DNA of 60,473 nucleotides from Elusimicrobiota bacterium (GTDB lineage: Bacteria > Elusimicrobiota > Elusimicrobia > 2-02-FULL-39-32). The position numbers were made by a program, and so were the translations under genes. The stretch spans positions 1 to 60,473 of the forward strand of contig JAKFYJ010000020.1 in assembly GCA_021730935.1 (NCBI GenBank). The letters run 5' to 3'. The notes beneath the pieces were generated by a model. It was not told where the DNA came from. It ran no database searches and saw nothing but the letters and a program-made list of their open reading frames with translations. Positions 5,176 through 42,102 of this stretch are shown here, one piece after another. Every line of letters starts with the position of its first letter. The stretch's first letter is position 1.

Positions 5176-6108
5176 TTATCTCCCTCCGAATTTATAGGAA
5201 AAGCTGATGTGGTGAGTGCCGCCGAGCTCTCCCATGGGGAGGAAAGCATAATCGAGAGCGGCCCTGGAGGCGAGTTTCAAGCCCAATCCCATCGCCATGC
5301 CGGAAAATGCGTCGAGACTTGATGAACCACCGCTGACTTTGTTCCTGGCGAACTGGGAAGTGTATCCGGAACGGACGGAAGCGAAGTTGGAAATGTCGAG
5401 CTGACCGCCGAAAGCGAGAGAAGTCTTTTGGTCTTTCATGCCGTATTTGAGGTCCGAAGTGAAAGTGATGAAAGAGATTTTGTGGGAGGCTCCCAGGGCC
5501 ATGGTGGCTGGGAGCTGGACAGATTCGTTTTCATATTTTAAAGAAGGGCCAAGATTAAAAACGCCTGCGGCAAGTTTTGTTTTGGGAGAGAGGGAATAAG
5601 CGCCTGAAAAATCGAGAGCCATGCCTGAAGCTTTGGCGGTGTCGATTCCGGACTGGATGAACTTGGCTGAAAGACCTAAAGAGAATTGATCATTGAGGGA
5701 GTGTCCATAAGAAAGAGAGACGGAGTTGTCGGAAGCGGAGAAATCCTGAGTTTGGGTTCCGTTTTCATCTCTGCCTTGCAGGGTGCCTTTGGAGAAACGG
5801 CCGTAAGAAACGCCGATAGCTGATTTATGGGAGGAGAAAGGATGAGCGAAGGAGAAATAGGAATAGGAGAAGTCTGAGACGAACCTGGAATAATAGGCGA
5901 AGGCCTGAGAGGAATCGAGGCGAGAGAGGAGGGCTGGGTTCCAATAAGTTGCGGAAGCGTCGTTGGCATTGGCCATGAGAGCGCCGCCCATGGCTTGCGC
6001 GCGGGCTCCGACGCCGAGACTAAGAAACGGAACGCCTGTATTTTGCGCGAATGAAAGGGATGAAGAAAGGATGAAGGCCATCAGCAGGACGACGGATTTT
6101 CTGGACAT
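5176..6108 (-). CDS. PorV/UPF0164-type outer-membrane beta-barrel protein (copy B)
   Basis: A 310-aa protein with a signal peptide (MSRKSVVLLMAFILSSSLSF) and the family signature LGVGARAQAMGGA followed by DASATYWNPALL near the N-terminus. Alternating amphipathic strands run to a terminal SYKFGG, as expected for a beta-barrel. PorV in Bacteroidetes is the type IX secretion shuttle that passes cargo with a conserved C-terminal domain to the attachment machinery; that role here is an inference. The gene heads a two-gene operon with the glycoside hydrolase 2 bp downstream. It is closely similar throughout to the barrel at 12191-13135, so the two are paralogues. A purine-rich AGAGGGGG precedes the ATG. 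Its promoter carries the 11-bp phased repeats. Confidence 0.85.
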   Translation of the reverse strand: MSRKSVVLLMAFILSSSLSFAQNTGVPFLSLGVGARAQAMGGALMANANDASATYWNPALLSRLDSSQAFAYYSRFVSDFSYSYFSFAHPFSSHKSAIGVSYGRFSKGTLQGRDENGTQTQDFSASDNSVSLSYGHSLNDQFSLGLSAKFIQSGIDTAKASGMALDFSGAYSLSPKTKLAAGVFNLGPSLKYENESVQLPATMALGASHKISFITFTSDLKYGMKDQKTSLAFGGQLDISNFASVRSGYTSQFARNKVSGGSSSLDAFSGMAMGLGLKLASRAALDYAFLPMGELGGTHHISFSYKFGGR

Positions 6109-6143
6109 TTATTGGTGCCCCCTCTTGATTTTTGTGTATTTCC

Positions 6144-6188
6144 ATTATGGCACAGATGATTCATCTAAATTGTAAACTTTTTGTAACA
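6144..6188 (-). promoter_or_regulatory. Promoter with 11-bp phased repeats for the PorV copy B operon
   Basis: On the minus strand TTGTTACAAA and AGTTTACAA cores are spaced 11 bp (plus-strand starts 6170 and 6181). A GCCATAAT -10 element lies at 6144-6149. The same repeat occurs upstream of five other transcription units in this window, which argues for a shared OmpR/PhoB-type activator site. No -35 hexamer is evident. Confidence 0.55.
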
Positions 6189-6208
6189 ATTTTGGGTGGG
6201 GGCGGAAT

Positions 6209-6250
6209 GAAAAAGCCATCGGTTCCGGACGAAGAACCGATGGCTTTTTT
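6209..6250 (-). terminator. Intrinsic terminator of the subtilase gene
   Basis: An 11-bp perfect stem (gccatcggttc at 6215-6225 with its complement at 6234-6244) is flanked by A5 on the left and T6 on the right, so it can work in both directions. On the minus strand it follows the subtilase stop by 15 nt. Confidence 0.85.
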
Positions 6251-6265
6251 ATGTTGGGGGGAAGT

Positions 6266-9200
6266 TTATTTGACGATGGCGAACTTGCCTTTGACGCGGA
6301 TGGTTTCGCCGTCTTTTTGGGCGACAGCGGTATAAAGATATACGCCGCTGGGCAAGTTGCTCACCTTACATTCATAAGCATACTGGTTGTTGATGATGCT
6401 CACCTGGTTGAGGGTCGCTTCCTGGATTTTGTCGCCGGCTTCGTTATAGATGCGGAGGTCCACTTGATCGGCGAGGCCCAGGACAAGGCGGATTTTGGGG
6501 TCGCCGTGCGCGGGGTTGGGATAGGCGAAGGATTGGTGAAGAGTGAATGTTTCGTCGATGCGCGCCTCCTCACCTTGATCGCCATCAAGGTCATATAGTC
6601 CGGAGAGAGTCTGAGTCAGAAAAGCCGGCGCGGCGATTGGACCCGTGGAATTCTCAATCGATAATGAAGAATCATCAAACCAGACCGTTCCATAGGAGTT
6701 ATAAAGCTGAAGCCTAAATTTTGCCGCAGATGCATTTTGTGGAGGTGAAAAAATTCCGCGCAACATTGTCCAGTCCGCTGTCCCAACAAGGTTTCCTGCA
6801 ACAATATCGGTGCGTAATATGCCCTGGGTCCCATCCATCCAATCCAAAAGGACGCGCGCGCCCTGGCCGCCTGCGCCTGCGGTGACATTTGCAAGCCGAA
6901 CCCAAACTTCTGCGGCATATGCTGATCCGGGTTGGAATCCCGCAGAGGAGGATATGACAGGATTGTTTTCTATGGTGGAAGTTCCCGGGCTTTTGCGGGT
7001 GAGTTTTATGGATTGAAACCCGCTGTGTGAAACTCCGGTGTCAAATGACCCTGCCGCAGGCATGGACCATGGGCCTGCTGATTCAAAGCTTGAGCTGAAA
7101 ATAAATGTGTTAATGACAAAAACAGAAACCGACGCGGTGCTGACATTCCCGCCGGTGTCTGTGACGCGGACAACAATTTTATGAGTTCCATCGGAAGTTT
7201 GGGTTGTATCTCCGGAAACAGACCAGTTTTTTGTCCCTTTCAATTTCACGAGGGTCCCGTCTTCGAGCACAAGTTCAACCTTGGCGATCCCTCGAGCGTC
7301 GGCGGCAGTTCCGGAGATAAGGATCGTGCCTCTCACAGCGGATCCGTCAGGCGGACTCAGAATGGCAAGCGTGGGGGGATCAGTGTCGGCAGAGGGCGAG
7401 ATGATGATATTGATTTTGGCGACGGTAGAATTTCCGATCGTGTCCGTGGCTTTAATGAAGATCTCATGGGGTCCGCTGGGGTTTGCCCCTGTGTCACCGG
7501 TTAATGACCAATTTGTGGTTCCGTTGGCGAGCACATAGGGGCCGCTGTCAATTTTAATTTCTATTTTTGAAACAGCATGGTTGTCAGCGGAGGTTCCCGA
7601 AATGGCGGCCATGCCGGACAGCGTTGCTCCTTCAGGCGGGGACTGGATAAAAATCGAAGGGGGGATGGCATCATTGTGATCAATGAAATATTGCGCGGAA
7701 ACGGAAGAAGAATTGCTTTTGTTGTCGGTTGCCCGGACAGTCACGAGATGAGGGCCGTCGGAAATAAAATCGGTGTTTCCTGTCAGGGACCAGTTCGTGG
7801 TTCCGTCGGCGAGCACATAGGGGCCGCTGTCGACTCTAATTTCGACTTTGAGGACATTTTGATTGTCCTCAGCCGTGCCTGAGATAGTGATGATGCCTGA
7901 GAGGATAGAATCTTTTATCGGCGTTGATATGAAGATCTCTGGGGGGGTATCAAGCGATTTGTTTAATGTGACGGCGATGACATGCTCGGCCCTGCCGACA
8001 ACCGGGTCCGGACCTAAAAGCGTGATGTAATGCGTTCCGTCCGCATAATTGCTGGTGTCCCAGGTGGTGGTGGCTATTCCATTGCCGAAATATGAACCAT
8101 AGAGCACGCCATCGATGAAAAACAAGGACCCGAGTGTATGCGGATAAATGATATTCACCTTCTGACTGTTCAATATTGCGCCGTCCTGAGGTGAGGTGAT
8201 TTTCACTGAATACAGCGTCGGAGGCGCATTTTGGTCGACGATGAACGTAATGTTCTCCTGATTAACCAACTTTTCATTGGAGTCATATAGCAGCGCTTTA
8301 AGTTTGTGAGGGCCTGTCGATATCTGAGTTGTGTCCCAACGGTAAAGATTTGAACCACCTCCGTCCACAAACAAAACACCGTCGATATAAAGTTCCGTGG
8401 ATATCCCGTGAGGGTGGTATCCTGTAGCGGTCTGAGCGAAGTACAGTCCTTTTATTTTGTCCCCATGATGAGGCACCTGAATTAGACCAGGAGTTTCAGG
8501 GGGTGAAGGATTGGTGAATTTAAAATCATTTGAAATCGTCAGGTTGCCGGCCGCATCTTTGGATATCAATCGATAATGGTAGGTTATTCCGGCAGACAGC
8601 CCCGTTATGGTTTCCGAATGGGATAATGAAAGAAACGGGTTCAGAGGCGATGAATTTCCATAGGAAGTGGTGAGTCCATATTCAACCCTGGCATCCGCAG
8701 GTTTGTCCGTGAACCAACTAATCTCTGCTGAATCAATCCTGCTTCTGATTGTGACGGTCGAAATGACGGGAGCGGTGGTGTCTGTGGAAGGAACGACTGA
8801 AAAAATCAGATCATCGTGGTCGTTCATGTGTCCTGGAGCGCAAGGGCTCGGGTTTGCCGGAGATACGAATCTGTATACGCCGCGAACGGCCTGTAAATTA
8901 GGTCCAGCTTGAACCAGATAATCCGTTTCAAGCAACTGGGTTCCTGTCGCTGGGGGCGTCAATGTGTTGACATAGGTCCAAACCGGGTTTTGGGCATCAC
9001 TGGCATAGTATATGTCCACAAAGTCCAGCGTCGTGCTGAAGGCCCAAATGGTGGCTTGAACTCTTATTGTTCTTCCCTTCACCAAAGAGCCGCCATCGGG
9101 AGCAAAAACTTGTAAACGGTCCAGAGAACCATATACATGATAATACCCATCTGTTCCGTCAGGACAGGAATCGTGGATCGTGTTGGGCTGGTTCGGTTCA

Positions 9201-11143
9201 GCTCCTCCCGGACTGGAGGCCATCCCGTTCAATAGATTGCCGCTGTCGCAAACGGCTCCGGGCATCGGGCAGGCGGGAGCTTTTAAAACGGGGTCATAGG
9301 CGGATGCCGGAGGAGCGTTGACCCATTGTCCGTTGGACGAAGTCGGGAATGAAAATAATCCCGCGCCGTTTGACGCTTTGACTGTGAAATAATATGTGGT
9401 TCCGTGATAAAGGGGAAGTCTTGCCTGGGTCGTGGAAACTGAGGGGCCGTTATTCGTCCATTCCAGGATATCGGTTGAATTTGGAGAGGTTCCAATGGCA
9501 TACCAATAGCTCGAGATTCCCGACTCCGGGTCTGATGATTGCGGCCAGTTGGCTGAAAGTCTGAAGCTGTTGTTTGTGGCAGAAATGTCGGCTCCGGTCC
9601 CGTCGTTGACCGCTGAAATGTTCGCGGGAGGAGTCATGTCGAGAGTGTTGAGGGTGAGGGCTTTGAATGCGTTGATTCTCCCATATCCCGCATAGATGTC
9701 GAATCCCGGAGCTCCCAAATCATCGGCCGACTGTCTGAGGGCTGATCTGATGTCGCTCGGGCTATAGTTGGGATGGTTGGAAAGAAGGAGGGCCGCGAGA
9801 GCGGAGACATGCGGCGTCGCCATGGACGTTCCGTTTAAACGAGCATAATTTGTTCCGATCACAGGGCCCAAAGCGGTTCCGTTCGCCTTTAATGACAGAA
9901 TGTCGACGCCGGGCGCCGCGACATCTATTTTGTTTCCGAAATTGGAAAAGTATGCTTTTTGATCGTTCGGGTCAAAGGCGGCAACCGTGATCACATTTGT
10001 CAATCCGGCTGGATAAAATTGCTGGGCGTTCACATTGCTGTTTCCAGCCGCGGCGACCACAACGCATCCGAGAGAGTTCGCATAATTGACCGCATCTTCA
10101 ATGATCGCCGAATAGCCCAACCCTCCCCAGCTCAGATTGATGACATCAGCGCCGTTGTCCGCCGCATAGTGAAGCGCATTGGCCAGGTCAGAAAAGAACC
10201 CCGACCCGCCGTCACTCACGCCTTTGACGGCCATGACTTTACTGTTGAAAGCTAAACCGATGACTCCGAGGTTGTTGTTCCCTGTTGCCGCGATCGTCCC
10301 TGAAACGTGAGTCCCATGTCCGTTGCCGTCTGCGGGGTCGTTGTCAGCCGTCTTTCCGGAAACACATGTGCCCCAAAAATCACTTTCAGCGCAGGTCGTA
10401 AAATCATATCCATAAACATCATCGACAAATCCGTTGCCGTCGTCATCGATGCCGTTGCCGGAAATTTCTCCAGGGTTATGCCACATGTTGTCTTTGATGT
10501 CGGGGTGATTATAATCAATTCCCGTGTCCACAACAGCCACCACAATTCCGTTGCCGGTTGTTAAGTCCCAGGCAGGTCCCGCCTGAACCTTTTTTAATCC
10601 CCACAGGTCGCCATAGGCCTGCCCCCAGCTTTTGGAAGAATTGTAATAAGGGTCATTGGGCGTCATCTGGACTGTCACGATCCCGTCTTGCTCGGCATAT
10701 TCCACATTCGGGTCATTCTTGAAATCATTCAAGGCCGCCTGTTCATCTGTCCCCGAATCCAGGTCCAGGACATAGACATCGGAGAGTTCCGGGGTTTGAA
10801 CATTGCTCTCAATTCTTCGGCTTCTGTTTTTGAATCTCGCTTTCACTTCATTTGTGAGCTCAGCTTCGCTTTTGTTTCGGATGTTTTTCTCGAGCCTCTT
10901 AAAAACCCTTTCTGATTTTGTGATTTTATGCGTGGAGTGGAGCCGGTTCATGGCTTTGGCGGAATTCTTTTTGTATTTGACGATAATCCGCCCTTGGGCA
11001 TGCGGAGACTTTGATTGCACGGGTGGGTTGTCGATAACCATGGCTTGGGTGAATGAAAAAGCAAGACTGAAGATTGAAGTGAGAGCTGGAAACGTTATTT
11101 TTTTTAGGGGCAGTTGCCGTTGTTTTGAGATATTTAGATTCAT
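6266..11143 (-). CDS. Exported subtilisin-like serine protease (S8) with Ig/FN3 modules and sorting-like C-terminal domain
   Basis: A 1625-aa protein. An export signal (about 1-35) is followed by an inhibitor-I9-like propeptide (about 50-160, ending NVEYAEQDGIVTVQ) and a complete S8 catalytic domain. The triad is Asp206 in VAVVDTGID, His276 in GNGHGTHV and Ser440 in GTSMATPH, with oxyanion Asn368 in AAGNSN. About 900 residues of FN3-like and Ig-like modules follow; the Ig modules share the framework ISGTA..N..V.KVEI.. with the 11280 protein. A carbohydrate-binding-like sandwich comes next. The last 85 aa (from FAYPNPAHGD to GKFAIVK) are nearly identical to the end of the 11280 protein and resemble T9SS type A/FlgD-like sorting domains. 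The gene is monocistronic with its own promoter and terminator. Its likely role is a surface or secreted protease handled by the PorV-like system (inference). Confidence 0.93.
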   Translation of the reverse strand: MNLNISKQRQLPLKKITFPALTSIFSLAFSFTQAMVIDNPPVQSKSPHAQGRIIVKYKKNSAKAMNRLHSTHKITKSERVFKRLEKNIRNKSEAELTNEVKARFKNRSRRIESNVQTPELSDVYVLDLDSGTDEQAALNDFKNDPNVEYAEQDGIVTVQMTPNDPYYNSSKSWGQAYGDLWGLKKVQAGPAWDLTTGNGIVVAVVDTGIDYNHPDIKDNMWHNPGEISGNGIDDDGNGFVDDVYGYDFTTCAESDFWGTCVSGKTADNDPADGNGHGTHVSGTIAATGNNNLGVIGLAFNSKVMAVKGVSDGGSGFFSDLANALHYAADNGADVINLSWGGLGYSAIIEDAVNYANSLGCVVVAAAGNSNVNAQQFYPAGLTNVITVAAFDPNDQKAYFSNFGNKIDVAAPGVDILSLKANGTALGPVIGTNYARLNGTSMATPHVSALAALLLSNHPNYSPSDIRSALRQSADDLGAPGFDIYAGYGRINAFKALTLNTLDMTPPANISAVNDGTGADISATNNSFRLSANWPQSSDPESGISSYWYAIGTSPNSTDILEWTNNGPSVSTTQARLPLYHGTTYYFTVKASNGAGLFSFPTSSNGQWVNAPPASAYDPVLKAPACPMPGAVCDSGNLLNGMASSPGGAEPNQPNTIHDSCPDGTDGYYHVYGSLDRLQVFAPDGGSLVKGRTIRVQATIWAFSTTLDFVDIYYASDAQNPVWTYVNTLTPPATGTQLLETDYLVQAGPNLQAVRGVYRFVSPANPSPCAPGHMNDHDDLIFSVVPSTDTTAPVISTVTIRSRIDSAEISWFTDKPADARVEYGLTTSYGNSSPLNPFLSLSHSETITGLSAGITYHYRLISKDAAGNLTISNDFKFTNPSPPETPGLIQVPHHGDKIKGLYFAQTATGYHPHGISTELYIDGVLFVDGGGSNLYRWDTTQISTGPHKLKALLYDSNEKLVNQENITFIVDQNAPPTLYSVKITSPQDGAILNSQKVNIIYPHTLGSLFFIDGVLYGSYFGNGIATTTWDTSNYADGTHYITLLGPDPVVGRAEHVIAVTLNKSLDTPPEIFISTPIKDSILSGIITISGTAEDNQNVLKVEIRVDSGPYVLADGTTNWSLTGNTDFISDGPHLVTVRATDNKSNSSSVSAQYFIDHNDAIPPSIFIQSPPEGATLSGMAAISGTSADNHAVSKIEIKIDSGPYVLANGTTNWSLTGDTGANPSGPHEIFIKATDTIGNSTVAKINIIISPSADTDPPTLAILSPPDGSAVRGTILISGTAADARGIAKVELVLEDGTLVKLKGTKNWSVSGDTTQTSDGTHKIVVRVTDTGGNVSTASVSVFVINTFIFSSSFESAGPWSMPAAGSFDTGVSHSGFQSIKLTRKSPGTSTIENNPVISSSAGFQPGSAYAAEVWVRLANVTAGAGGQGARVLLDWMDGTQGILRTDIVAGNLVGTADWTMLRGIFSPPQNASAAKFRLQLYNSYGTVWFDDSSLSIENSTGPIAAPAFLTQTLSGLYDLDGDQGEEARIDETFTLHQSFAYPNPAHGDPKIRLVLGLADQVDLRIYNEAGDKIQEATLNQVSIINNQYAYECKVSNLPSGVYLYTAVAQKDGETIRVKGKFAIVK

Positions 11144-11145
11144 GC

Positions 11146-11204
11146 TTTATATATACCACACCAATTACAAACATTTCCTAAACTTTTTGTAACATTTTTG
11201 TAAA
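11146..11204 (-). promoter_or_regulatory. Promoter with four phased repeats for the subtilase gene
   Basis: Four copies related to TTGTAAAC on the plus strand start at 11165, 11176, 11187 and 11198, exactly 11 bp apart; the two gene-distal copies match best. A TATATA -10 lies at about 11148-11155. This would place the transcript start at or within a few bases of the ATG, so the message may be leaderless; no Shine-Dalgarno sequence is visible. Confidence 0.55.
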
Positions 11205-11216
11205 TCTTTTTGGGCA

Positions 11217-11262
11217 TAAAAAAACCGGGTCCCCGAGGGAAATTCCTCGAGAACCCGGTTTG
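11217..11262 (-). terminator. Intrinsic terminator of the PorV copy A operon
   Basis: A GC-rich hairpin (aaaccgggt at 11222-11230 with acccggttt at 11253-11261, inner stem cgagg/cctcg) is followed on the minus strand by a run of U. It ends the two-gene operon 13135-11280. Confidence 0.85.
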
Positions 11263-11279
11263 GTGTTTCGGGGTATGGG

Positions 11280-12188
11280 TTATTTTACGACGGCGAATTT
11301 TCCTTTGGTCCGGATGATTTCTCCGTTTTTTGTGGCGGCGGCGGTATACAGATAAACGCCGCTTGGGAGGCCGCTCACCTTGTATTCATAAGCATATTGA
11401 TTATTGATGACGCTCACCTGATTGAGCGTTGCTTCCTGGACTTTCTCTCCGATCTCGTTATAGATGCGGAGGTCCACCGTGTCGGCAAGGCCGAGGATGA
11501 GGCAGATCTTCGCGTCTCCTCGCGAGGGATTGGGATAGGCGAAGCTTTCTTTCAGGCCGAAGATTTCGCTTTCTTCAGAAGCCTTGGGAAAAGGAACGCC
11601 GGAAGTGATCCCTGTTCCTGAAGAGTTCGTGACTGTTCCGCTGGAAGTTGAGGGGATCGAGACAGTCCCGCTCGAACCGACGACAGAACCGCTGGAGATG
11701 ATGATAGTTCCGCTGGAAGTTGAGGGAATGGTGACAGTCCCGCTCGAACCGACGACAGAACCGCTGGAGATGATGATGGTTCCGCTGGAAGTTGAAGGGA
11801 TTGTGACAGTCCCGCTGGACGAGGACGGAGGATTTGTTCCGGTGGAATTGTTCACGGTGACAACGATCCAGGCGACTCTCGCGTTTCCGCTGGTGTCCAC
11901 GGCTCTGGCAACCACGCCATGCTGGGCGTTGGTGAGAGTGCTCGTGTTCAGGCCGAATGTCCAGTTTAGGGTTCCGGACGCGATCTTCGTGAAGTTGACG
12001 CCGTCGATGGCGATTTCCACTCTTGCGATTGCTGTGTCGTCCTTCGCCGTGCCGGAAACCGTGACGAATCCAGAGACGACAGATCCTGACGACGGCGAAG
12101 TGATGGCGATGGTGGGCGGAGTGGTGTCCGCTCTGCCTGCGGCTGTCAGGAGTCCCGTGAGAAGGATTGAAGCGATGAATGTTTTCAT
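11280..12188 (-). CDS. Exported Ig-like protein with Ser/Thr-rich repeats and sorting-like C-terminal domain
   Basis: A 302-aa protein. The signal peptide is MKTFIASILLTGLLTAAGRA. An Ig-like module (about 24-115) is of the type repeated in the neighbouring subtilase. A Ser/Thr/Gly-rich linker (about 120-195) is built from 24-residue repeats (SSGTVTIPSTSSGTIIISSG). The final 87 aa run from FAYPNPSRGD to GKFAVVK. This C-terminus is almost the same as that of the subtilase, while the upstream parts differ, so it behaves as a portable module; YPNP is typical of T9SS-type A and FlgD-like domains. The gene starts 2 bp after the stop of the PorV-like gene. It may be a minimal surface-anchored cargo or adhesin; no catalytic domain is visible. 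Confidence 0.85.
   Translation of the reverse strand: MKTFIASILLTGLLTAAGRADTTPPTIAITSPSSGSVVSGFVTVSGTAKDDTAIARVEIAIDGVNFTKIASGTLNWTFGLNTSTLTNAQHGVVARAVDTSGNARVAWIVVTVNNSTGTNPPSSSSGTVTIPSTSSGTIIISSGSVVGSSGTVTIPSTSSGTIIISSGSVVGSSGTVSIPSTSSGTVTNSSGTGITSGVPFPKASEESEIFGLKESFAYPNPSRGDAKICLILGLADTVDLRIYNEIGEKVQEATLNQVSVINNQYAYEYKVSGLPSGVYLYTAAATKNGEIIRTKGKFAVVK
11636..11851. repeat. Three 72-bp tandem repeats inside the 11280 gene
   Basis: Units begin at 11636, 11708 and 11780 (ttccgctggaagttga). They encode the 24-residue Ser/Thr-rich repeats; the third copy diverges at its end. Near identity at DNA level suggests recent slippage or recombination and possible length variation between strains. Confidence 0.9.
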
Positions 12189-12190
12189 GA

Positions 12191-13135
12191 TTATTGACCT
12201 CCGAATTTATAAGAGAAGCTGATGTGGTGCGTGCCGCCGAGGTCTCCCATGGGAAGGAACGCATAGTCCAGGTTGGCGCGCGAACTGACTTTCATTCCGA
12301 GTCCCATGGCCATTCCGGAGAGCTCGCCGAAGTTGTTGGGATCGCCGGAGGTTTTGTGATTCACAAGCTGGGACGTGTATCCCGAGCGGACCGAGACGGC
12401 ACCGGCAATGTCGAGCTGGCCTCCGAACGCGAGCGATGTTTTCTGGTCCCTCAGTCCGAATTTGAGGTCAGAGGTGAGGGTCAGGAAAGAGACCTTGTGA
12501 GAAGCGCCAAGAGCCATGGTGGCAGGGAGCTGGACCGATTCGCTTGCATATTTGAGCGAAGGTCCAAGGTTAAACACGCCCGCGGCGAGTTTGGTTTTCG
12601 GAGACAGGGAATAAGCCCCCGAAAAATCGAACGCCATGCCCGAGGCCTTTGAGGTCTCGATGCCGGATTTCACGAACTTGCCCGAAAGTCCCAGGGAGAG
12701 TTTGTCGTTCAGGTTTCTTCCATAGGAAAGGGCCATCACGTCGTCCGCGGCTGAGAAGCTTTGGGTCTGGGCTCCGTTCTCGTCTCTGCCTTCGAACTCG
12801 CCCTTGCTGAAATGCCCATACGAGAATCCGAAGGCGGCTTTATGGGATTTCCAGGGTTTGGCGAAGGCGAAATACGAATAGGTGAAGTCCGAGACGAACT
12901 TGCTGTAATAAGAGAAGGCCTGAGCGGAGTCCAGTCTTGCCAGGAGCGCCGGGTTTGAATGGGCGGCTGAAGCGTCCTGAGACACAGCCATCACGGCGCC
13001 TCCCATGGCTTGCGCCCGGGCTCCGACTCCCAGATTAAGAAAGGGAAGTCCCGGCGCCTGGCAGAGGGCGGCGCTCCGGAACATCAGGCACACGACGGCA
13101 GACATCGCGGCTTTTGCGAGTATTTTGCGTTTCAT
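12191..13135 (-). CDS. PorV/UPF0164-type outer-membrane beta-barrel protein (copy A)
   Basis: A 314-aa protein paralogous to 5176-6108, with LGVGARAQAMGGA and DASAAHSNPALL after the signal peptide (MKRKILAKAAMSAVV). I chose ATG 13135 over an upstream in-frame start at 13174 because it is preceded by a strong AGGAGG and begins a normal signal peptide. The strand pattern and the C-terminal SFSYKFGG match outer-membrane barrels. It is first in a two-gene operon with the sorting-domain protein at 11280-12188, the same order as copy B with its glycoside hydrolase. By analogy with PorV it may shuttle or anchor the downstream cargo (inference). Confidence 0.85.
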   Translation of the reverse strand: MKRKILAKAAMSAVVCLMFRSAALCQAPGLPFLNLGVGARAQAMGGAVMAVSQDASAAHSNPALLARLDSAQAFSYYSKFVSDFTYSYFAFAKPWKSHKAAFGFSYGHFSKGEFEGRDENGAQTQSFSAADDVMALSYGRNLNDKLSLGLSGKFVKSGIETSKASGMAFDFSGAYSLSPKTKLAAGVFNLGPSLKYASESVQLPATMALGASHKVSFLTLTSDLKFGLRDQKTSLAFGGQLDIAGAVSVRSGYTSQLVNHKTSGDPNNFGELSGMAMGLGMKVSSRANLDYAFLPMGDLGGTHHISFSYKFGGQ

Positions 13136-13180
13136 TTTAAGGTTCCTCCTTACTGCTGCTTGCGTTCTTGTCATGGTTTA

Positions 13181-41591: not shown

Positions 41592-41595
41592 CATA

Positions 41596-41634
41596 AAAAA
41601 ATCGCTCCGACGCGATATCGGAACGATTTTTTTA
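41596..41634. terminator. Bidirectional intrinsic terminator between the envelope operon and the tRNA
   Basis: Stem aatcgctccga (41601-41611) pairs with tcggaacgatt (41619-41629) with one mismatch, flanked by A-rich DNA on the left and T6 on the right. It can end the plus-strand operon and the minus-strand tRNA transcript. Confidence 0.8.
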
Positions 41635-41635
41635 T

Positions 41636-41968
41636 TGCGGGGGTAGGATTTGAACCTACGACCTTTGGGTTATGCGTACCACTTCAGCTTCCGCTGCTCC
41701 TCGTTTGAGGATTTGTGGTCTGGACTTTCTCTTCACCTTTGAACGGCTCTTGCCGTCGGTAAGGTGTCTGCCATTAAGTCTCTACACCTTCCCGCCGTTT
41801 TATCGGCGGACTTGGCTCGGGATTACCCCGCCAGGGGCTTCCCCGAATTTGACAGAAGTTCGTGCAAAAGTTTCCTTCTGCACAGCCCATTGCAGAATCA
41901 GTAAAGGCGTGTGCATCTGATTCTGCGGAATTGAGCCCAACGAGCTACCGGACTGCTCCACCCCGCGG
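41636..41968 (-). tRNA. Initiator tRNA-fMet(CAU) split by a group I intron
   Basis: The 5' exon is 41968-41935 and the 3' exon 41675-41636. Joined they give acceptor CGCGGGG/CCCCGCA plus A73, D-arm GAGC/GCTC, anticodon arm TTGGG-CTCATAA-CCCAA and T-arm GTAGG-TTCAAAT-CCTAC. The C1-A72 mismatch and the three consecutive G-C pairs in the anticodon stem mark an initiator tRNA. CCA is not encoded. The interruption lies between U33 and C34. Confidence 0.93.
41676..41934 (-). other. Group I intron (IC3-like) in tRNA-fMet, 259 nt
   Basis: The upstream exon ends in U and the intron ends in G, as group I splicing requires. In order on the minus strand the conserved core is P (AATTCGGGGAAGCC, 41850-41837), Q (AATCCCGAGCCAAG, 41825-41812), R (AGAGACTTAATGGCAG, 41784-41769) and S (AAGAGAAAGTCC, 41734-41723). 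R and S pair ACTT with AAGT as P7, a covariant of the ACTC/GAGT common in tRNA-Leu introns. A 10-bp P2-like hairpin spans 41927-41893 and a GAAA-capped hairpin 41886-41863. No endonuclease ORF is present. P1 was not resolved by eye. Confidence 0.9.
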
Positions 41969-42102
41969 ATCAATCATAGGATATCCCCGCCTTGAAGTCA
42001 AATCGCGCCGTATGTATAGCGTGGACCGAATAAAAATAACCCCGCTCCCTCCCCAAAACTAAAACTCCAAAATCTCAAATATAACCCGTTTATTCACTGT
42101 TT

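Follow-up and report, generated by a model that had tools for sequence, protein, structure and literature searches.

A group I intron in the likely sole initiator tRNA gene of an Elusimicrobiota genome, with counterparts at that bond across some 18 bacterial phyla

A group I intron of 259 nt splits the initiator tRNA gene, tRNA-fMet(CAU), of an Elusimicrobiota genome within its anticodon loop, at the bond joining U33 to C34. The gene lies at 41967-41635 on the minus strand of the window (the whole stretch of 60,473 nucleotides analysed here), and at least 104 tRNA-fMet genes from about 18 phyla carry an intron at the same bond, as confirmed by a homologue covariance model, R1. We are highly confident that the intron in the window is a self-splicing one that was formerly mobile with a PD-(D/E)XK endonuclease and now lacks it. 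The type of intron is already known, and the more interesting part is its broad spread together with the endonucleases that lie displaced from it.

An earlier note, made from the letters of the sequence, had placed a group I intron at the U33/C34 bond of an initiator tRNA and suggested an intron-aware tRNA search, a covariance model and a search for a second intact tRNA-fMet. ARAGORN in intron mode calls tRNA-Met(cat) with a score of 294 and a 259-nt intron at 34-35, with the same borders as those given below; without intron mode it calls no tRNA in the window. ARAGORN folds the spliced sequence into a normal initiator cloverleaf with the features of bacterial initiator tRNAs, namely a C1 x A72 mismatch, three G-C pairs (G29-31/C39-41) at the base of the anticodon loop and a CAU anticodon. 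Initiator identity and intron position are thus as proposed, and the coordinates given at the time, which named no strand, were off by no more than one base. Since a promoter, ending five bases upstream, precedes the tRNA and a terminator-like hairpin follows it, the gene looks like its own transcription unit. Its parts and those of the intron are as follows.

41973..42001, minus strand: sigma-70-like promoter, TTGACT-N17-TATGAT, 10 of 12 consensus matches (0.6 expected by chance)
41934..41967, minus strand: 5' exon of tRNA-fMet(CAU), nucleotides 1-33, end TTGGGCT (U33), from ARAGORN intron mode and the sequence
41675..41933, minus strand: group I intron, 259 nt, at U33/C34, start CAATTCC, end GGTACG, from RF00028 and R1
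41635..41674, minus strand: 3' exon of tRNA-fMet, C34 to A73, CCA not encoded
41593..41635, minus strand: strong intrinsic-terminator-like hairpin and T run, directly 3' of the tRNA
41932..41937, minus strand: P1 5' strand, exon GGCU and intron CA, with splice-site U33 in a U.G pair with the internal guide sequence
41892..41926, minus strand: P1 extension hairpin, 10 bp, in whose loop the relatives' endonuclease ORF sits
41800..41916, minus strand: putative endonuclease ORF remnant of I-Ssp6803I type, 38 codons (MHTPLLILQWAVQKETFARTSVKFGEAPGGVIPSQVRR*), overlapping the ribozyme core
41884..41889, minus strand: P1 3' strand and internal guide sequence, UGGGCU
41862..41883, minus strand: P2 hairpin, GAAA loop
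41767..41856, minus strand: P3 (41856-41850 with 41773-41767), enclosing P4, P5, P6 and P6a
41846-41841/41822-41817, minus strand: P4
41838-41834/41829-41825, minus strand: P5
41816-41814/41788-41786, minus strand: P6
41810-41804/41797-41791, minus strand: P6a
41723..41780, minus strand: P7, the guanosine-binding helix (41780-41776 GACUU with 41727-41723 AAGUC), enclosing P8 and pseudoknotted with P3
41766-41761/41739-41734, minus strand: P8, for which an extension is also drawn
41719-41715/41682-41678, minus strand: P9.0 (P9 region 41678..41719)
41711-41707/41702-41698, minus strand: P9
41696-41693/41688-41685, minus strand: P9.1
41675, minus strand: intron-terminal G

Rfam family RF00028 matches the intron significantly, at 64.9 bits (E 3.2e-14, model positions 1-253, gathering threshold 50), and nothing else in the window was matched in an Rfam scan. 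Model R1, whose training set includes the window sequence, gives it 277 bits. From P1 to P9.1, including the extensions of P1 and P8, only standard pairs occur in the window, and the precursor folds at -138.5 kcal/mol against -103.5 for shuffles (z = -6.9). Across 10 homologues from different phyla 91.8% of cells are paired, compared with 83.0% in shuffles; across 99 homologues, in an alignment that was fitted to a covariance model and leans towards it, the figure is 91.4%, while shuffling gives 76.2% and sliding 32-45%; 65 of the 80 pairs show changes in both partners, and none of 500 shuffles is as high on any measure. The covariation of P7 claimed in the earlier note holds as well: GACUU/AAGUC changes on both sides across about 98 homologues, and P7 is paired in 100% of the homologue cells with letters (fifth pair U-A 59, G-C 28, A-U 7, C-G 4), a pairing that is not fitted since P7 was left out of the covariance model used for the alignment. 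Of 97 homologues, 84 have U.G as the splice-site pair in P1 and 11 have C-G. In the window, the guide sequence and the A preceding it offer an AUG able to pair with the CAU anticodon as P10; as a general feature this pairing was dropped, AUG not being universal among homologues.

These features describe a well-formed group I intron, for which guanosine-dependent self-splicing is predicted from the sequence. The precursor would be transcribed from its own promoter and the intron would fold, with P1 pairing U33, the last base of the exon, to a G of the guide sequence. Guanosine supplied from outside and bound in the P7 helix would then cut after U33, which in turn would attack after the terminal G, joining U33 to C34 and restoring the CAU anticodon loop. 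An insertion in the anticodon loop could also be expected of a protein-spliced intron of the archaeal BHB type or of some other element outside group I. Such an origin is hardly conceivable here given the full and covarying group I core; the exon-terminal U and the intron-terminal G, both already in the earlier note, argue against it too, as does the U.G pair at the 5' splice site.

Whether translation initiation would hang on this reaction depends on the number of initiator tRNA genes. The genome is a metagenome-assembled genome (MAG) of 96 contigs, 95.46% complete with 2.74% contamination, in which the Rfam tRNA model finds 73 tRNA-like matches. In this assembly, from which about 4.5% may be missing, the search for a second intact tRNA-fMet by BLAST with the spliced sequence returned the gene's own two exons and short weak matches, with no second initiator; the mismatch typical of initiators is absent from two further CAU tRNAs, which do not match the gene. 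The window gene is therefore likely the sole initiator tRNA gene, although in an assembly of this completeness that is not proven, and because no other was found, initiation probably depends on splicing of the intron. Alternatively, the locus could be a silent pseudogene with a degenerate intron while an intact initiator lies in the unassembled part of the genome. The fragmented, incomplete assembly leaves room for this, yet both exons and all core helices are intact and a promoter and terminator flank the gene, which, with the BLAST result and the unlike CAU tRNAs, makes it very unlikely. Still less likely is a contig from another phylum binned into the genome. The contamination estimate and the occurrence of the same intron in many phyla would allow it; against it, the intron is far from the ends of its 60-kb contig and its nearest relatives are introns from the same GTDB family, and a congener, G032, has a tRNA sequence 97% identical to the spliced one, with 36 nt of alignable 5' flank.

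Relatives within Elusimicrobiota point to how a self-splicing intron without an endonuclease may have come about in the window genome. G034 and G036, of the same GTDB family, have 664-nt introns at the same bond, and G030, from another family of the same class, has one of 643 nt, all with an ORF in the P1 loop. The G034 protein matches PDB 2OST (I-Ssp6803I) at E 1e-58 as well as PF11645 (PDDEXK_5), and the G036 and G030 proteins match that of G034. Compared with its 664-nt relatives, the window intron lacks 405 nt (135 codons). It retains a start codon and 38 open codons that, across 30 aa, share 76.7% identity with the C-terminal end of the relatives' ORF, a part that likewise overlaps the ribozyme core, and its P1-extension stem is the counterpart of the stem at the base of their ORF loop, with compensating differences (GCAGAAUCAG/CUGAUUCUGC versus GCGAAAUUAG/CUAAUUUCGC). 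There is no intact I-Ssp6803I-type endonuclease in the window intron and no other copy of the family in the genome. We thus infer that the window intron is what remains of an endonuclease-bearing mobile intron after a 135-codon loss; the in-frame remnant and the endonuclease-bearing close relatives indicate an ORF that was lost rather than never present. In an intron tree with few strongly supported branches, it groups with the two introns of the same family (SH-aLRT 95).

Uninterrupted tRNA-fMet genes occur in congeners of both the window genome (G032) and G034 (G035). G034 and G035 form a precise filled and empty pair, the intron being an exact insertion after GGGCT, with flanks 93.7% identical over 839 bp and 89.5% identical over 475 bp on either side. 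The search for uninterrupted genes by BLAST with the spliced tRNA covered 41 genomes; a pattern for the intact tRNA found 7 of 341 and is too strict for a phylum-wide frequency. In the simplest history, the intron would have been acquired together with the endonuclease, would then have spread or been lost within the family, and in the window lineage would have shed the endonuclease. The intron would have come to the site with an I-Ssp6803I-type PD-(D/E)XK endonuclease in its P1 loop, the 135-codon loss would have left it immobile, and it may now be kept only because precise loss is rare. With members that have intron and endonuclease, intron without endonuclease, and no intron, this Elusimicrobiota family offers a natural series for studying gain and loss in an essential gene.

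Other features were seen in these and related genomes. G030 has three interrupted tRNA-fMet-like loci (L219, L230, L231): that of 643 nt with the PD-(D/E)XK ORF, a second of 981 nt in which a different long insert follows the 5' strand of P7, and a third measuring about 240 nt. In other Elusimicrobiota relatives (L223, L228, L229, L233), group I introns (RF00028, 67-94 bits) lie in genes for tRNA-Leu(UAA), tRNA-Thr(UGU) and probably tRNA-Asn(GUU). In the window genome, at least 27 tRNA genes are packed into 3.5 kb (G000:C75; L033 1973-5424) alongside genes for an HNH endonuclease and an RtcB-type tRNA ligase; the array resembles those of mobile elements or phages and contains no initiator tRNA. 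At G000:C41:3485-3553 (L038), the first 45 nt of the C33 elongator tRNA-Met are repeated exactly and the rest is absent, which looks like the attachment-site remnant of an integrated element. The window itself encodes, at 5176-13174 on the minus strand, PorV-like proteins together with a subtilase that bears a Por_Secre_tail, a combination that suggests type IX secretion in this genome.

Beyond Elusimicrobiota, genome contigs were scanned for the 3' half of tRNA-fMet preceded by the intron-terminal G instead of U, which gave at least 114 stretches. R1, built from ten of the matched sequences or their near relatives, confirms the at least 104 genes, a few of them only partly covered where the contig stretch ends. 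Among the matches listed, Cyanobacteriota account for 28 loci, Bacteroidota for 24, Nitrospirota for 12, Chloroflexota for 10, Rhodothermota for 6 and Omnitrophota for 4, with one to three in each remaining phylum; phyla were assigned by record title, and mis-binning of MAGs is possible, though hardly for over a hundred records. The earlier note had rightly judged the host not to be cyanobacterial, as its assignment to Elusimicrobiota confirms, but its picture of a rare and mainly cyanobacterial intron does not survive this count. The assignment was made through G036, an Elusimicrobia genome of the same GTDB family; a search for SSU rRNA in the window genome gave no gene, and MnmG, whose best match among named genomes was 62% (Nitrospirae), did not tell the phylum. 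Carriage by phages or plasmids is not supported: the pattern found no introned tRNA-fMet in viral contigs, plasmids gave no intron endonuclease, and phage records yielded 31-37% endonuclease matches in three records only. Six acidobacterial loci (L073, L092, L094, L103, L160, L172) have variant tRNA-fMet introns that match R1 weakly (76-98 bits); in L073 and L172, where the 5' exon was located, the intron start CATAACC repeats the start of the 3' exon, leaving the splice bond ambiguous.

The literature names Synechocystis and Gloeobacter for the tRNA-fMet intron (PMC8450103, PMC1995217), and 36 genomes are said to seem without fMet or Ile2 tRNA because of introns (PMC8450103). No paper on such a multi-phylum spread was found within the open-licence literature. 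In many lineages remote from cyanobacteria, an essential step, the production of initiator tRNA, appears to rely on a ribozyme, and the genes concerned escape standard tRNA finders, as this one does with default ARAGORN.

At 19 loci among the matches listed (18 of usable length), all from Cyanobacteriota and Bacteroidota, the intron is ORF-less and an endonuclease gene of the family found elsewhere in the P1 loop follows the tRNA in the same orientation. I-Ssp6803I-type genes take this position in L063, L067, L075, L093, L119, L124, L151, L153 and L165 (Cyanobacteriota) and in L101, L102, L106, L125, L126, L133, L138 and L152 (Bacteroidota). They start 62-150 nt after C34 (269 in one truncated copy), about 20-110 nt downstream of the tRNA end, and a terminator-like hairpin separates the two in the four loci read by eye. 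A protein tree has four weakly supported changes between the inside and downstream placements, and the latter possibly had more than one origin. Perhaps, with chances about even, tRNA-fMet introns and the PD-(D/E)XK endonuclease belong to a single mobile system spanning the bacteria, in three states, with the endonuclease in the P1 loop (many phyla, the window's relatives among them), free-standing downstream, or lost (the window). The downstream state would then represent collaborative homing at a chromosomal tRNA gene, a process which to our knowledge has so far been described for phage introns. The arrangement resembles that of those introns; the term itself is found in PMC3984707 and others.

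The closest known system is the cyanobacterial tRNA-fMet group I intron, reportedly described in Synechocystis, Dermocarpa and Scytonema by Biniszkiewicz et al. in 1994; its endonuclease I-Ssp6803I is said to go back to Bonocora and Shub in 2001. Gloeobacter also carries such an intron. The window shares both gene and U33/C34 bond with the loci from cyanobacteria (28 going by record title, among the matches listed), and the same covariance model fits, full-length loci not used to build R1 scoring about 190-238 bits. The Synechocystis intron has 655 nt and a 150-aa ORF (PMC1995217), and the introns of the window's relatives are alike in length (643-664 nt) with an endonuclease of the same family. 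The window intron differs in its Elusimicrobiota host and in having a 38-codon remnant in place of an endonuclease, and no other intron compared shares more than about 78% identity with its core. A second group I intron of the same genome, in the 23S rRNA gene (G000:C35:2015-2336; L001 1491-1812), lies between ...GGTCGCCT and CCTAAATGG, which we take to be about E. coli position 2262. It also belongs to RF00028 (76 bits) but differs in gene and sequence, and R1 does not match it at a cut-off of E 0.01. The group I introns of tRNA-Leu(UAA) in cyanobacteria and plastids, tRNA-Ile(CAU) in Azoarcus and tRNA-Arg are likewise small and placed in the anticodon loop, whereas the window intron occupies another tRNA and another bond.
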